Assembly (NCBI RefSeq): GCF_000814825.1
Contig: NZ_CP009302.1
Location: 1,674,001-1,738,000, forward strand
Length of the DNA: 64,000 bases
Reading direction: 5' to 3'
From: Berryella intestinalis
GTDB lineage: Bacteria; Actinomycetota; Coriobacteriia; Coriobacteriales; Eggerthellaceae
Within the stretch, counting starts at the first letter, position 1. Each line of letters starts with the position of its first letter. Positions 3,085-8,669 of this stretch are shown piece by piece. The translations under genes were made by a program, and so were the position numbers. Under the pieces are notes generated by a model that ran no database searches, had not been told where the DNA came from, and worked only from the letters and a program-made list of their open reading frames with translations.

Positions 3085-3576
3085 CTACGAGACGCCGAAG
3101 ACGACGTCGAGCAAAGGCGAGTACCAGGTCGTCGGCGGCGCGATGTCAGCCGATTTGACCTCGCTTTGGTAGGTGGTGAGCGAGCCGGCGGACTCCGACT
3201 CGGACGACAGGCCGGAAACGTTGGCGGTCTGCTCGCCCTTCTTCACCCAGCCGAATTCCTCATGGGCCGCCGTTTCCACGCCTGCTGCCGTGGAAAGCGA
3301 GTCGTTTTGGGCCTCGATCGCCGCATTGCGGCTCTGCAGGGCCGCGTACTCCATCTCAAGCCGCTGATTCTCGCGCATGGCCTGGTAGTAGCTCTGAGCG
3401 GGGGCGTACAGGAACGCCGCCACGAACACCGTCATGACGATGGAGGCGGCGGCCACGAAGGGGCCGCGCGGCAGCTCGAAGCGCCCCAGCACGTCCAGAG
3501 AGCGCAATCGGGCGAAAGCGGGCAGCGCCGAAGCGGCGGACTGCATATGCGACGTCCTGCGCGCCTGGCGGCCCAT
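3085..3576 (-). CDS. FtsB/DivIC-like septum formation initiator
   Basis: This is a bitopic membrane protein of the division machinery (FtsB/DivIC family). From the ATG at 3576 it has 163 residues: a single membrane span at about 40-62 (GPFVAAASIVMTVFVAAFLY), then a coiled-coil segment at about 63-100 rich in Glu, Gln and Asn (QAMRENQRLEMEYAALQSRN), then a low-complexity tail. This matches the family architecture. The same frame stays open and looks coding for about 130 further codons upstream, to a stop at 3979-3981. That part has a charged, Arg/Lys-rich sequence typical of cytoplasmic tails of actinobacterial homologues, but contains no ATG, GTG or TTG. A CTG at 3966 is preceded by AAAGAGG at good spacing. 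The true start is therefore probably upstream of the ATG given here. Confidence 0.8.
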   Translation of the reverse strand: MGRQARRTSHMQSAASALPAFARLRSLDVLGRFELPRGPFVAAASIVMTVFVAAFLYAPAQSYYQAMRENQRLEMEYAALQSRNAAIEAQNDSLSTAAGVETAAHEEFGWVKKGEQTANVSGLSSESESAGSLTTYQSEVKSADIAPPTTWYSPLLDVVFGVS

Positions 3577-4070
3577 CTTTCCCTCGTAGACCGCGGCGCG
3601 GGGGGCGTCGGCGGCACGGGACGAGGGGCGGTCCGCGTCGGATCCGAACTGGCGCTCGAAAAGCCGGGCAGCGCGCTTCTTCTCCCGCTGGCGACGGCGC
3701 GAAGCGCGAGAGGCCCCCTTATCGGGAGAATCGTCGGAATCCTCGTCGGGAAGCGCCGAGAGCGGCTCGTCGGAAGGCGTGCGGAAAGCGCCGTCGAGGC
3801 GGCGCCGGGACGATGCGAAGGCCCCGCGGGAAGACCGGGGTTCGGAGGGCGCGGGTGACGAGGGGCCGGTTCGCTGAGCGTGCCTGGGGAAACCCTGCGC
3901 GAGGGAAAGCGCGCGCGAAGAACGTTTCGCTTCATCGAACGAGACTATGTTGCTGTGCGCGGGCAGGAGCGGCCTCTTTCATGCATCGTTTGTCGTTTGA
4001 AGGTGGGTGTAATGCGTGAAACCGAGTAGAGAATAGCACAGGCGGGTGCTGGAAAACGGGTGCGTCCGGC

Positions 4071-4463
4071 CTAGATCTCCGCTTTGAGGCCATGCTCCTT
4101 GAAATAAGCACGCCACTTTTCGAAGGACTCGTCGGAGATCGCATGCTCCATCAAGCACGCCTCCGCATCGGCGCGCTCGTCGTCGATGCCGAGAACCTGG
4201 GTGAGGAAGGCGAACAGGAGGTGATGGCGCTCCAGCACGGACCGACCGTACTCGTACCCTTCGTGGGTGAGGGTCACGTCGCCGTAGTAGGGCTGGTCGG
4301 CCAGGCCCTTTTCCTTGAGCAGGGAGACGGCCTTGTTCACGGAGGCCTTCGACACCTCGAGCTTCTTGGCGATATCGACCGAACGAACGGACACCTCGTC
4401 GGTTCCGCCGAGCATGACGATCGCTTCGAGGTAGTCCTCGTGCGATTTGGACATCTTCTCCAT
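4071..4463 (-). CDS. DtxR/MntR-family metal-dependent transcriptional repressor
   Basis: This 130-residue regulator begins MEKMSKSHEDYLEAI, the classic start of the DtxR family. A winged helix-turn-helix follows at about residues 20-65 (VRSVDIAKKLEVSKASVNKAVSLLKEKGL). The metal-binding dimerisation region carries the expected Glu/His residues (LERHHLLFAFLTQVLGID and EACLMEHAIS). The C-terminal SH3-like domain of full-length DtxR is absent, as in MntR and short IdeR-like proteins. It sits next to the feo genes, so control of Fe(II) uptake is the simplest role, though Mn cannot be excluded. An extended -10 promoter (TGGTAGAAT) lies about 50 bases upstream. A TAGGT-N4-ACCTA palindrome lies about 350 bases upstream at another promoter. 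Confidence 0.88.
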   Translation of the reverse strand: MEKMSKSHEDYLEAIVMLGGTDEVSVRSVDIAKKLEVSKASVNKAVSLLKEKGLADQPYYGDVTLTHEGYEYGRSVLERHHLLFAFLTQVLGIDDERADAEACLMEHAISDESFEKWRAYFKEHGLKAEI

Positions 4464-4514
4464 GATGAGACCCCCGTTGCTGAAGATGGTTGCGAATCCT
4501 ATACGATCTGGATG

Positions 4515-4524
4515 AATTCTACCA
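4515..4524 (-). promoter_or_regulatory. Extended -10 promoter of the dtxR-family gene
   Basis: The minus strand reads TGGTAGAAT (-10 hexamer TAGAAT at 4521-4516, with the TGN extension). It is placed to give a short leader before the ATG at 4463. The same TGGTAGAAT sequence occurs upstream of the LuxR-type gene near 36.2 kb, which supports its use by the housekeeping sigma factor. Confidence 0.5.
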
Positions 4525-4604
4525 TCAAAAAGGGCCGCGCAACCGAAAGTACACCGCGGTCACCGATCTCCCGCATCGTTTCGAGCAGCCGATTTCACCA
4601 GGGA

Positions 4605-4628
4605 AAACAAAAAGACGGCCGAGCCGTC
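4605..4628 (-). terminator. Intrinsic terminator of the candidate small RNA
   Basis: On the minus strand GACGGC and GCCGTC form a 6-bp GC-rich stem with a 3-nt TCG loop, followed at once by TTTTTGTTTT. This is a textbook rho-independent terminator. It lies about 140 bases upstream of the dtxR-type start codon. Confidence 0.8.
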
Positions 4629-4806
4629 GAAGAAAAGTGGCTGGCGAGGGAAGAGAGAGGGGGGTGGGTCCCTCGCCAGCTCGTTGTGTGGTGGATGATC
4701 AGACGAGAGGAATCTCCACCACCGGGTCAGCTAATCAGGTCGTACCGTCGGCCGTTTCCGGCTGCGTCGCCGTTCGGATCTTCTCCGCCGTTCCGACTTC
4801 CGACAT
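4605..4806 (-). ncRNA. Candidate metal-regulated small RNA
   Basis: A promoter-to-terminator unit of about 200 nt contains no convincing reading frame. Reading the minus strand there are four elements. First, a GCCG-GAAA-CGGC hairpin (4762-4751). Second, an 8-bp stem (GTGGTGGA/TCCACCAC, arms at 4722-4715 and 4695-4688) with a 19-nt loop. Third, a perfect 12-bp stem (arms 4680-4669 and 4651-4640) with a C/U-rich 17-nt loop (CCCACCCCCCTCTCTCT). Fourth, an intrinsic terminator (4628-4605). C/U-rich loops complementary to Shine-Dalgarno sequences are known in Gram-positive iron-sparing sRNAs such as FsrA. Function by analogy is inference. The downstream dtxR-type gene has its own promoter, so this is not simply its leader. 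No match to 4.5S, 6S, tmRNA or RNase P RNA signatures was seen. Confidence 0.5.
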
Positions 4807-4811
4807 TTGTT

Positions 4812-4840
4812 AGTTTAGGTTTACACCTAGGAAGCGTCAA
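4812..4840 (-). promoter_or_regulatory. Strong promoter overlapped by a DtxR-like operator
   Basis: On the minus strand TTGACG (4840-4835) and TAAACT (4817-4812) are separated by exactly 17 bases, close to the sigma-A consensus. The spacer and -10 contain the palindrome TAGGT-N4-ACCTA (4816-4829). Its half-sites match those of the DtxR box (TTAGGT...ACCTAA), though the spacing is three bases shorter than the classic 19-bp site. The position would let a metal-loaded repressor block RNA polymerase. Confidence 0.6.
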
Positions 4841-5056
4841 CAAGTATTTTGTAGCTTACTTCCGTTTCACGGCTTCTCCATAACCGCGCAGCGATCGCTT
4901 GGACCGCAGCGGCCGAAAGGACGGCTCAAAAGATCCTCAATGACGAACCGCCAGGGCTTTCATCAGGCGGGACGATAGAACCGACGGGACGATCGAGCCG
5001 CTACCGATCGGGACATCGGGGCGCCGGTCGGGCAGGAAGGCTCGCGCACTCGTCGA

Positions 5057-5266
5057 TCAGCGCCCTTCCTTCGCAAGCGCGGCATCCACGTCCGCCATCA
5101 TCTTGTCGGCCGAAGAGCAACCTCCCCCGCAGCTGCACGAGCCATGCGAGCACGCTTTCCCGTCGCACGAGCCCTTCTTGAAAAGACGTCGCACCGCCAG
5201 ATAGAACCATCCCGCGAGAAGCGCCAGAACCAAAAGCGTTCCCGGCGTCAGAGAGAAGTCCGCCAT
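5057..5266 (-). CDS. FeoB-associated Cys-rich membrane protein
   Basis: This 69-residue protein has one N-terminal membrane span (about residues 8-26, GTLLVLALLAGWFYLAVRRL). A short cytoplasmic tail with five cysteines and a histidine follows (CDGKACSHGSCSCGGGC). This is the layout of the small FeoB-associated Cys-rich proteins (FeoC-like position) that follow feoB in many anaerobes, and a role in metal handling is presumed from context. The ATG at 5266 has GGAGG six bases upstream. An upstream in-frame ATG at 5284 would only add MKRRST. It is co-directional with feoB and lies about 170 bases downstream of it, after three tandem hairpins. Confidence 0.85.
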   Translation of the reverse strand: MADFSLTPGTLLVLALLAGWFYLAVRRLFKKGSCDGKACSHGSCSCGGGCSSADKMMADVDAALAKEGR

Positions 5267-5294
5267 CGTCGACCTCCGTTTCATCCCGAATGCA

Positions 5295-5402
5295 CCGCAG
5301 GGCAGGCACGGCCCGCCCTGCGGCAAAACTTACCTATAGCTAACTATGGCAGACGGCCCCGTCCTCGCACCCCGTTCGCACGGGGCGTTACGCGGCCGTA
5401 AC
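5295..5402 (-). other. Three tandem hairpins between feoB and the Cys-rich gene
   Basis: Reading downstream from feoB, three perfect stems follow one another. They are GTTACG-GCCG-CGTAAC (5402-5387), CCCCGT-GCGA-ACGGGG (5385-5370, a GNRA loop) and CCGCAGGGC-N11-GCCCTGCGG (5323-5295). None is followed by a good T-run, so they look more like RNA-processing or stability elements than terminators. Between the second and third lies TAGTTAGCTATAGGTAAG (near 5332-5350), which contains a TAGGT half-site like that at the 4.8-kb promoter. Confidence 0.5.
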
Positions 5403-5437
5403 CGCGCCTCCGGAACCGTCGCCACGCGCCTCCGAGG

Positions 5438-7954
5438 CTACTTCTCGCTATCGGCCTTCTTCGCATCGTAGCGCGGCATGGGGCGGAACACCTGGAAGAG
5501 GATCGCGCCCAGAAGCACGCACGCCGCCACGAACCCGACCACGTTCATCTCGCCGGACAGGGCGGAGCCGAACTGGAAGATGATGAGGCCGATCACCCAG
5601 GCGAACACGGTCATGTAGCCGATCGCGGCCCAGAACCACTTCGCGGACGCCATCTGGTTGCGGATCGCGCCGATGGCCGCGAAGCACGGGGCGCACAGCA
5701 GGTTGAAGGCGCAGAACGCGGCCATGGCGTTCACATTGCCGTTGAACAGCGCGGCGAACGCGGCCCACAGGCTGGGATCGGCGTCGGAGGCATCCGACCC
5801 GAGGGCCGTGATGATGCCGACGGTGGCCACGACGTTCTCCTTCGCCACCAAGCCCGTGATGGAGGTGACGGCGGTCTCCCAGCCGCCGAATCCCAGCGGG
5901 ATGAAGATCCAGCCGATGGCATTGCCCAGCGCGGCCATGAGCGAGTAGCGCATGTAGCCGTCCATCTCGGTGTCGAGCATGCCGAACGAGCCCTCGTAGA
6001 ACCCGAAGTTCAGCAGGAACCACACGACGACCGACGAGACGAAGATGATGGTGCCCGCCTTGATGATGAACGCCTTGCAGCGATCCCACACCGACATGAG
6101 GACGGTGCGCGCCGCGGGGATGTGGTACGCGGGAAGCTCCATGACGAACGGAGAGGCTTCGCCGGCAAACCAGCGGGTCTTGCGCAGCATGATGGCGGAC
6201 ACGATGATGGCGATGATGCCCATGAAGTAGAACAGGGGCGACACCCAGGTGGCGTTCTGGATCGACCCGCCGGCGATGGAGCCGAAGATCAGGGCGATGA
6301 TCGGGGTTTTCGCCGAGCAGGGGATCATGGTCGTGGTCATGATGGTCAGACGGCGGTCGCGCTCGTCCTCGATGGTCTTGGTCGCCATGACCGCGGGCAC
6401 GCCGCAGCCGGTGGCCACCAAGATGGGGATGAAGGACTTACCGGACAGGCCGAACTTGCGGAAGATGCGGTCCATCAAAAACGCGATGCGCGCCATGTAC
6501 CCGCAGCACTCGAGGATAGCCAGCTCGAGGAACAGAACGGCCATCTGGGGCAGGAAGCCCAAAACGCTGCCGACGCCGGTGACGACGCCGTCGATGACGA
6601 GGCCCTTCACCCAGTCGGACGCCCCGATGGACTCCAGCCACCCCGTCACGACGGACGGAATGGAGGGCATGTAGGCGCCGTAATCGGCCGGGTTGGGCTC
6701 TTCGACTTCGAGCGCTTCGGCGAACCCTTCGGCGGAAACGGGCGTCACCGTGGTTTCCCCGGTCTCCTCGTCCTTGGCCTCGTAGACCCCTTCCACCTGC
6801 GCTTCCTCGGCGCTTTCGAGGAAGGCGGCGATGGCCTGCGCATCCTGTTCGGTGGGCTCTTCGGCCTTGAGGGCGGCGCTGACGGCCTCGGTGTCGATAC
6901 CCGCTTCCTCGGCGGCTGCGATGTAGGCGTCGATCTGGCCCTTAGCCTCGTCGAAGGCGCCCTTGTCCTCTTCGAACTGCTCGGTTCCGGTTATCAGCCA
7001 ACCGTCGCTGAACAGGTTGTCGTTCACCCAGTCGGTAGCCGCGGTTCCCACGGTGGAGATCGCGATGTAGTACACGAGGTACATGATCGCGATAAAGATG
7101 GGAAGGCCCCAGATGCGGCTGGTGAGGATGCGGTCGGCCTTTTCAGACGTGGACATGCCCCGCATCGAGCGCGTATAGGCCTCCGACACCACGTCCCCGA
7201 TCATGTCGTAGCGCTCGGACGTGATGATCGACTCGGCATCGTCGTTCAGTGCGTTCTCGAGGCCCTCGCGGATCGCGTCGATCGCCTGGACGTCGGCTGC
7301 GGGAAGCTTCAGCGAGTCGAGCGTGCGCTCCTCGCCCTCCAGCAGCTTGATGGCATGCCAGCGCACGGTCTCGGCGGGAACGCGCGAGGCCAGGATCGCC
7401 CCGACCTTCTCGATGGCGTCCTCGGCGTCGTTGGTGAACCGCACCGTGGGCGCGGGCACGCGCTTGCTTCGGGCGGCGTCGATCGCCGCATCGAGGAGCT
7501 TGTCGAGGCCGTCGTTTTTCAGGGCCGACACCGGAACGACCGGGCAGCCGAACTTGCTCGAAAGCTTGTCCAGATCGATCTTGTCGCCGTTTTTCGCCAC
7601 CAGGTCCATCATGTTGACGGCGATGACCACGGGAAGCCCCAGGTCGATCACCTGCGTGGTGAGGTACAGGTTTCGCTCGAGGTTGGTTGCGTCGACCAGG
7701 CTGATCACCGCATCGGGGCGGCCGTCGAGCAGGTAGTCGCGCGTGACGATCTCCTCGGGCGAATAAGGGGAAAGCGAGTACACGCCGGGAAGGTCGGTGA
7801 TGGTCACGTCCTTGTTCGCCCGGTACTGACCCTCCTTCTTCTCGACGGTGACGCCGGGCCAGTTGCCCACGTACTGCCGCGCTCCGGTAAGCGCGTTGAA
7901 CAGCGTGGTCTTGCCGCAGTTCGGATTGCCGGCAAGCGCTATGCGAATCGACAT
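5438..7954 (-). CDS. feoB: Ferrous iron transport protein B
   Basis: FeoB is the GTPase-coupled Fe(II) permease of the cytoplasmic membrane. In this 838-residue protein the N-terminal G domain shows G1 (GNPNCGKTT, residues 9-17), G3 (DLPGVYSL, 54-61) and G4 (NMMD, 114-117). A helical spacer reaches about 275. The membrane domain has the conserved Gate segments, including GCGVPAVMATKTI and PCSAKTP. Unusually, the segment between the first membrane span and the next hydrophobic region (about 322-435) is a roughly 115-residue insertion very rich in Glu, Asp and Ala. The start at 7954 is supported by GAAAGGA and by the G1 motif beginning eight residues later. It is co-transcribed downstream of two feoA genes. 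Confidence 0.95.
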   Translation of the reverse strand: MSIRIALAGNPNCGKTTLFNALTGARQYVGNWPGVTVEKKEGQYRANKDVTITDLPGVYSLSPYSPEEIVTRDYLLDGRPDAVISLVDATNLERNLYLTTQVIDLGLPVVIAVNMMDLVAKNGDKIDLDKLSSKFGCPVVPVSALKNDGLDKLLDAAIDAARSKRVPAPTVRFTNDAEDAIEKVGAILASRVPAETVRWHAIKLLEGEERTLDSLKLPAADVQAIDAIREGLENALNDDAESIITSERYDMIGDVVSEAYTRSMRGMSTSEKADRILTSRIWGLPIFIAIMYLVYYIAISTVGTAATDWVNDNLFSDGWLITGTEQFEEDKGAFDEAKGQIDAYIAAAEEAGIDTEAVSAALKAEEPTEQDAQAIAAFLESAEEAQVEGVYEAKDEETGETTVTPVSAEGFAEALEVEEPNPADYGAYMPSIPSVVTGWLESIGASDWVKGLVIDGVVTGVGSVLGFLPQMAVLFLELAILECCGYMARIAFLMDRIFRKFGLSGKSFIPILVATGCGVPAVMATKTIEDERDRRLTIMTTTMIPCSAKTPIIALIFGSIAGGSIQNATWVSPLFYFMGIIAIIVSAIMLRKTRWFAGEASPFVMELPAYHIPAARTVLMSVWDRCKAFIIKAGTIIFVSSVVVWFLLNFGFYEGSFGMLDTEMDGYMRYSLMAALGNAIGWIFIPLGFGGWETAVTSITGLVAKENVVATVGIITALGSDASDADPSLWAAFAALFNGNVNAMAAFCAFNLLCAPCFAAIGAIRNQMASAKWFWAAIGYMTVFAWVIGLIIFQFGSALSGEMNVVGFVAACVLLGAILFQVFRPMPRYDAKKADSEK

Positions 7955-8095
7955 CGAAGTCCTTTCACACGTTTTCGGATAGAAGACAGGCGCAGCTGGC
8001 GCAAAGTTCTGACCACATTGAGAAACTACCTGATGAAGGTACCTTTTCAACAACGCCGGACACATGCCGCGCGAACGCTGCGCAGAAGGTTTGCG

Positions 8096-8335
8096 CTAAT
8101 CGACCAGCACGCACTCGGCTTCGCTTTTGCGCAGCGACAGCTCGTAACCGCGAACCGTCAGCTCCAGGGGATCGCCCAGGGGAGCCACCTTGCGCACGAA
8201 CACCTCGGTCCCCTTGGTGATGCCCATATCCATGATGTGGCGCTTGATCGCGCCCGAACCCACAAGTCGCTTCACAACCGCCTTGTCCCCGATTGCGACA
8301 TCGCGAAGGGTTCTCTCCCGAACTTCTTCGGCCAT
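8096..8335 (-). CDS. feoA: FeoA-domain protein (second copy)
   Basis: This 79-residue SH3-like FeoA domain protein is a cytoplasmic partner thought to modulate FeoB. It shows the typical pattern of L-x-D-x-x-x-G followed by G-x-x-x-R-H-I-M-D-M-G-I-T-x-G (GSGAIKRHIMDMGITKG, about residues 27-43) and V-R-G-Y-E-L-S-L-R near the C-terminus. It lies 141 bases upstream of feoB on the same strand. An AAAGGAG sequence precedes the ATG at 8335. It is distinct in sequence from the upstream FeoA, so the two are not a recent duplication. Confidence 0.9.
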   Translation of the reverse strand: MAEEVRERTLRDVAIGDKAVVKRLVGSGAIKRHIMDMGITKGTEVFVRKVAPLGDPLELTVRGYELSLRKSEAECVLVD

Positions 8336-8435: not shown

Positions 8436-8669
8436 CTAGCTGACCATGACCTTCATGGCCGTCGCGCGGTTGATGGCGACACGCGATCCTTTGATCTCGA
8501 CGATAAGGTTCCCAAGCTGGTCGGCCACAACGCGAACCTCCCCGCCCTCGACGAAGCCGAGGTTCTCGAGGTGGTGGACCGTGTCCTGCCTCTTCAGCTT
8601 GATTCCCGATATGCGCACCGTCGATCCCTGATCGGCGAATGCAAGCGGCCGCTCCATCGTCTCGCTCAT
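8436..8669 (-). CDS. feoA: FeoA-domain protein (first copy)
   Basis: This 77-residue FeoA-type SH3-like protein has the central motif LKRQDTVHHLENLGFVEGGEV (about residues 24-44). Its C-terminus is ...VEIKGSRVAINRATAMKVMV, as in the family. It is the first gene of the feoA-feoA-feoB operon. An AAGGAGG sequence lies ten bases before the ATG at 8669. Two FeoA proteins per operon is a known arrangement in Firmicutes and other anaerobes. The separate roles of the copies are not known from sequence. Confidence 0.9.
   Translation of the reverse strand: MSETMERPLAFADQGSTVRISGIKLKRQDTVHHLENLGFVEGGEVRVVADQLGNLIVEIKGSRVAINRATAMKVMVS

Follow-up and report, generated by a model that had tools for sequence, protein, structure and literature searches.

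The described RNAs nearest in logic to the one considered here are FsrA of Bacillus subtilis, IsrR of Staphylococcus, MrsI of Mycobacterium tuberculosis and RyhB of enterobacteria. FsrA is a metal-repressed sRNA whose C-rich region pairs with the Shine-Dalgarno sequences of iron-protein mRNAs; IsrR carries C-rich regions in its loops, targets Fe-S enzymes and acts on translation; and MrsI is an actinobacterial iron-sparing sRNA that is predicted to be repressed by IdeR (all PMC9410917). E. coli is known to use Mn2+ as a substitute for Fe2+ when iron runs short (PMC4361602). In the open-access literature, we found no paper that describes a metal-responsive sRNA in Coriobacteriia.

The RNA described below, from Eggerthellaceae, resembles each of these systems in part. 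As in FsrA, a C-rich pairing region is proposed to be aimed at Shine-Dalgarno sequences, and as in IsrR there are C-rich loops and (predicted) Fe-S targets. However, FsrA and IsrR are Fur-controlled, as is RyhB, which is also Hfq-dependent, whereas the box and the neighboring gene of the Eggerthellaceae RNA point to a DtxR-type protein. In this respect it resembles MrsI, IdeR being a DtxR-family protein like the proposed regulator here. What it would have in common with RyhB is the logic by which iron proteins are silenced by an sRNA that is itself shut off by a metal-loaded repressor. The stems of IsrR show little covariation, whereas those of the Eggerthellaceae RNA vary widely. In contrast to MrsI, the new family was found in Eggerthellaceae alone, by searches with its own sequence and structure. 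RybA/MntS and MntP of E. coli provide another parallel, in that a metal-controlled short transcript is tied to manganese balance, but MntS works as a protein, whereas the Eggerthellaceae RNA has no conserved frame and the mntP mRNA is its proposed pairing partner. Rfam scans revealed no sequence relation to FsrA or IsrR, and no synteny with IsrR was seen. Because no relation to these two, to MrsI or to RyhB was found, we treat the RNA as a functional analogue rather than a homologue. Modeled on these four, it would be repressed by a metal-loaded DtxR-type protein and would block translation of iron-rich enzymes.

The window (the whole stretch of 64,000 nucleotides of Berryella intestinalis DNA that was analyzed, with positions counted from its first letter) holds the RNA unit in an intergenic region of the minus strand. 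It lies between a Cys-rich gene, which itself comes after feoB, and a dtxR-type gene. The features are as follows.

4604-4806, minus strand: ncRNA gene of ~200 nt, its start placed from the -10 element and its end from the terminator
4835-4840, minus strand: -35 element TTGACG (promoter scan)
4812-4817, minus strand: -10 element TAAACT, within the operator-like box (promoter scan and box comparison)
4809-4824, minus strand: operator-like box GTAAACCTAAACTAAC, family consensus GTTA-N8-TAAC, a proposed DtxR-type site (conserved across copies)
4688-4722, minus strand: hairpin 1, with a 12-nt loop UCCUCUCGUCUG at 4700-4711 (covariation, invariant loop, mntP complementarity)
4700-4707, minus strand: invariant loop-1 core CUCGUCUG, proposed seed for Shine-Dalgarno pairing
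4640-4680, minus strand: hairpin 2, a perfect 12-bp stem with a C/U-rich 17-nt loop CCCACCCCCCUCUCUCU at 4652-4668
4604-4628, minus strand: intrinsic terminator GACGGCTCGGCCGTC-TTTTTGTTTT
4071-4463, minus strand: gene for a DtxR/MntR-family regulator, directly downstream of the RNA and its proposed regulator (PF02742, PF01325)
5057-5326, minus strand: small predicted membrane protein rich in Cys, encoded between feoB and the RNA
5329-5344, strand unassigned: weak box-like sequence CTTACCTATAGCTAAC, upstream of the Cys-rich gene after feoB (10.0 bits, pooled matrix)
5438-8065, minus strand: feoB (Fe2+ transporter)
8096-8335, minus strand: feoA
8436-8669, minus strand: feoA (second copy)

Most of this architecture had been described in a sequence-only reading of the locus, and the promoter (TTGACG and TAAACT, 17 bp apart), the two hairpins, the second with its perfect stem and C/U-rich loop, and the strong terminator at 4628-4604 are all present as it described them. 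The promoter is the sole sigma-70-like site in 3500-6500 (one found vs. 0.3 expected by shuffling). The same reading gave the dtxR-type gene its own promoter beyond the RNA terminator, but the promoter scan of the window found none there; a TGTGGTACCAT motif precedes dtxR in several relatives. It also drew attention to a TAGGT-N4-ACCTA palindrome at 4816-4829, which does overlap the -10 element and the box but is not itself the conserved element, that being GTAAACCTAAACTAAC at 4809-4824. The Cys-rich protein has no match in Pfam or NCBIfam; related genes occupy the same place in many relatives.

Folded as a single sequence, the window RNA is modestly more stable than shuffles (z -1.9). Rfam release 15 at the gathering cut-off matches only tRNAs in the window and nothing at the RNA, for which the best match below threshold scores 18.3 bits against a cut-off of 60. 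Comparison across genomes removes the doubt left by the single-sequence fold and confirms that the RNA element is real. A first DNA search matched 12 of 60 relatives, all Eggerthellaceae. A covariance model of hairpin 1, the kind of search that had been suggested for this family, recovered the RNA from 63 of 138 Eggerthellaceae genomes in 21 of 48 genera, with one to three copies each, and gave no match outside Eggerthellaceae among 396 genomes of the phylum and 397 of the order. Carriers include Enteroscipio rubneri, Rubneribacter badeniensis, Ellagibacter isourolithinifaciens, Berryella wangjianweii and a Gordonibacter sp. A few genomes give weak matches of 28-29 bits, which probably represent diverged members of the family.

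Compensatory stem changes between genera had been set as a test of the RNA, and they are present in nine of the 11 base pairs of hairpin 1 (63 distinct sequences). In this alignment, which was fitted to the covariance model and so leans towards it, 98.2% of cells are paired compared with 84.7% in shuffles, doubly changed cells number 141 vs. 46, and the covariation score is 0.581 vs. 0.304; sliding the partners destroys the signal. The first 12 sequences give the same picture. The loop-1 core CUCGUCUG is identical in 72/72 copies, an identity that is partly by construction because copies were gathered with a filter on CTCGTCTG or TTCGTCTG; model-based matches that fall outside this filter likewise retain CUCGUCU. 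Hairpin 2 was analyzed copy by copy, because its variable loop length caused automatic alignment to misplace the right arm. It was found in 71 copies with 46 distinct left arms, and its loops total 572 C, 197 T, 40 A and 2 G (811 bases), with CCCC in 70 of the 71. The earlier reading placed its emphasis on loop 2, but the part that is invariant in sequence is loop 1. Hairpin 1 thus displays a constant word, whereas what stays constant in hairpin 2 is the composition. On this comparative evidence, the structure of the RNA is under selection.

A precedent for a different kind of product is RybA of E. coli, a former sRNA that encodes the small protein MntS. A 23-codon frame does begin at 4806, beside the predicted start site, and many copies carry an AAATGTC motif after the box. 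However, an ATG occurs near +1 in only 31/69 copies, where it opens unrelated frames of 4-266 codons that differ even between the closely related L014 and L015. In many copies, moreover, stop codons interrupt each of the three frames across hairpin 1. The compensatory and length changes of the hairpins also speak against coding. We therefore rejected a conserved small protein, and a coding role of this kind seems scarcely credible; the sequence-only reading had named a homologous frame in relatives as evidence against an RNA, and no conserved frame is seen. With its own promoter and terminator, a conserved structure and no conserved frame, the RNA fits the class of trans-acting base-pairing sRNAs, as judged by sequence.

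Most copies lie directly upstream of a co-oriented dtxR gene, including several paralogous dtxR genes, as would be expected of a cis-acting leader, that is, a 5' UTR that controls dtxR through attenuation or by hiding its ribosome-binding site, with any free RNA as a by-product. Many copies that precede dtxR also lack a T-tract after hairpin 2. Because a T-rich tail directly follows hairpin 2 in only 29/69 boxed copies, some copies may read through into dtxR. On the other hand, about one-third of copies have no downstream dtxR (several face a gene on the opposite strand there, and some lie next to a second feoA-feoB pair), so the RNA is not only a dtxR leader. Copies without a nearby dtxR mostly retain the promoter box, both hairpins, the invariant loop and the C-rich loop. 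In the window, a terminator stands between the RNA and dtxR, and the mntP complementarity described below requires a trans role. A pure leader is hence distinctly unlikely, and the trans-acting sRNA remains our preferred reading. The family is also associated with feoB. In L047, L049, L050 and L073, RNA paralogues lie upstream of a second feoA-feoB pair, and one copy in L084 is flanked downstream by a gene resembling a metal-transporting P-type ATPase and on the opposite flank by a dtxR gene.

The 16-bp GTTA-N8-TAAC box covers the -10 element in 68/72 copies, and 17 bp is the best -35 spacing in 61 of these 68. In the 350 bp upstream of feoA, the highest-scoring match to the box beats shuffles (p<0.05) in 18/20 genomes, several of which share one sequence, so that not all are independent. 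In L117 and L118, the closest relatives, this upstream match is weak, and a matrix of the -10 box found no site at feo within the window. Across the genome of the window, box matches are few, no more than with a reversed control and too few to define a regulon. One exact match, GTTANCNTANNNTAAC, lies just upstream of a predicted methyltransferase-like gene in that genome (L137:1501-1516; G000:C1:1242017-1242032). Many copies (L014-L096) carry a second related box of the GTAAACCATGGCAAAC type, which follows a conserved TGTGGAGGAATT stretch just upstream of the -35 element and sits ~35-47 bp upstream of the -10 box. Taken together, a box common to the RNA and feo and a dtxR neighbor make metal-repressor control a candidate, on the grounds of sequence.

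The neighboring regulator has both iron-dependent-repressor domains (Fe_dep_repress and Fe_dep_repr_C). Its best NCBIfam models are MntR, at scores below cut-off. In alignment to MntR, it keeps the Glu and His ligands and the N-terminal Asp/Glu, with Asp at the Asp8 position, and its ligand region reads EACLMEH, with Cys aligned to Glu99 of B. subtilis MntR. The matching residue of DtxR is Cys102, and this equivalence makes an iron signal plausible. The alternative is a trans-acting sRNA of a manganese (MntR-like) regulon, derepressed at low Mn2+ to silence the Mn2+ exporter, for which mntP as the best target, the MntR models and the aspartate at Asp8 all argue. We consider this unlikely, because the box is common to the RNA and feoAB, the regulator has Cys rather than MntR Glu99, and the other predicted targets are Fe-S enzymes. 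From the feo link and this Cys we infer that iron, rather than manganese, is favored as the signal.

For the targets, mntP (Mn2+ exporter) carries most weight. The gene is present in 30/30 genomes examined. The loop-1 complement GACGAGAGGA lies at its Shine-Dalgarno region in G094, G093, G033, G006, G010, G104, G106, G026 and G117; the site has one G-U pair in G024 and is partial in G030, G123 and G103. Predicted duplexes with mntP have ~ -14 to -25 kcal/mol in these genomes, and -7 to -12 kcal/mol in genomes that lack the RNA (G025 gives -18.6 without the motif). All six RNA-lacking genomes examined lack the GACGAGAGGA site at the mntP Shine-Dalgarno sequence, as do the window's own genus and about half of the RNA-bearing genomes tested. 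Complementarity to an mRNA ribosome-binding site is thus conserved at mntP in several RNA-bearing genera, the window's genus not being one of them. Since that genus has the RNA without the mntP site, its targets are less certain.

That loop 1 is invariant even in genomes without an mntP site would suit a sponge or protein-binding RNA, whose conserved C/U loops do not pair with mRNAs but sequester another sRNA or an RNA-binding protein. Against this, the complementarity to mntP is long, is shared by several genera and falls on the Shine-Dalgarno region, and we regard such an RNA as improbable. With mRNA pairing as the preferred reading, further candidates in RNA-bearing genomes have the loop-1 complement 3-10 nt before an ATG. 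They include an aldo/keto reductase (five genomes, three genera), a 107-aa protein (MTATYMHIGIPITEKKPN...) without a Pfam match (four genomes, three genera), FMN reductases, molybdopterin Fe4S4 oxidoreductases, 4Fe-4S/ferredoxin-type proteins and a radical SAM protein. The 107-aa family has loci at L198, L275, L284 and L300, and in L041 a gene for a similar protein lies next to the RNA in convergent orientation. Fe-S proteins make up 14/57 predicted target frames vs. 0/15 at permuted-control sites, a small contrast in a small sample that contains orthologues (one-sided p ~0.03), with the control frames scanned with Pfam in part and otherwise judged by sequence.

Genome-wide enrichment of the loop-1 complement was considered and dropped. 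A 12-mer test gave 133 non-self matches vs. 93 for the permuted pattern in RNA-bearing genomes, and 68 vs. 84 in RNA-lacking ones, but the two groups could not be told apart by a stricter Shine-Dalgarno-ATG test that used a different permuted control. AGAGGA-ATG sites carry the motif in 74/2282 cases in RNA-bearing and 15/1651 in RNA-lacking genomes. Because the permuted control at such sites is likewise higher (24 vs. 7), this excess is mostly a matter of composition. As the global motif count does not clearly depend on the RNA, the identities of the genes, above all mntP, carry the target argument.

Computation has established a conserved gene with a conserved structure, an invariant loop, a box, a genomic association and mntP complementarity in several genera. 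The dtxR/feo link, the common operator-like box and the Shine-Dalgarno complementarity support the metal-responsive sRNA originally proposed, and we think it probable that this is the gene of a trans-acting, iron-sparing-like sRNA under repression by a DtxR-type protein. We infer that it is expressed, with transcription running from its own promoter to its own terminator. When metal is plentiful, a DtxR-type protein (probably the neighboring gene product with Fe2+) would repress both feo and the RNA, the latter at the GTTA-N8-TAAC box. Under metal shortage, the RNA would accumulate, and in vivo the hairpin-1 loop UCCUCUCGUCUG and the C-rich loop of hairpin 2 would pair with Shine-Dalgarno regions and block translation, as would a C/U stretch in the 5' part of about half of the copies. 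The best supported target is mntP, so that Mn2+ would be retained when Fe2+ is short; such silencing fits because Mn2+ replaces Fe2+ in iron-short E. coli (PMC4361602). Fe-S enzymes are likely to form a second target class, for iron sparing.

More tentatively, and with slightly less than even confidence, we propose that this is a new, Eggerthellaceae-restricted, multicopy sRNA family through which manganese retention is coupled to iron status: a DtxR-type protein would control feo and the RNA via the same box, and the RNA would shut off the Mn2+ exporter and Fe-S/molybdopterin reductases. If this is true, a RyhB-like regulator evolved separately in Eggerthella and its relatives, with mntP as a simple best target and a testable seed pairing. 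Many of the reductases with which these gut bacteria process drugs and plant compounds are molybdopterin Fe-S enzymes, the class behind much of the drug and polyphenol chemistry of Eggerthellaceae in the gut. Iron supply could thus, if the proposal holds, influence such chemistry via the RNA.
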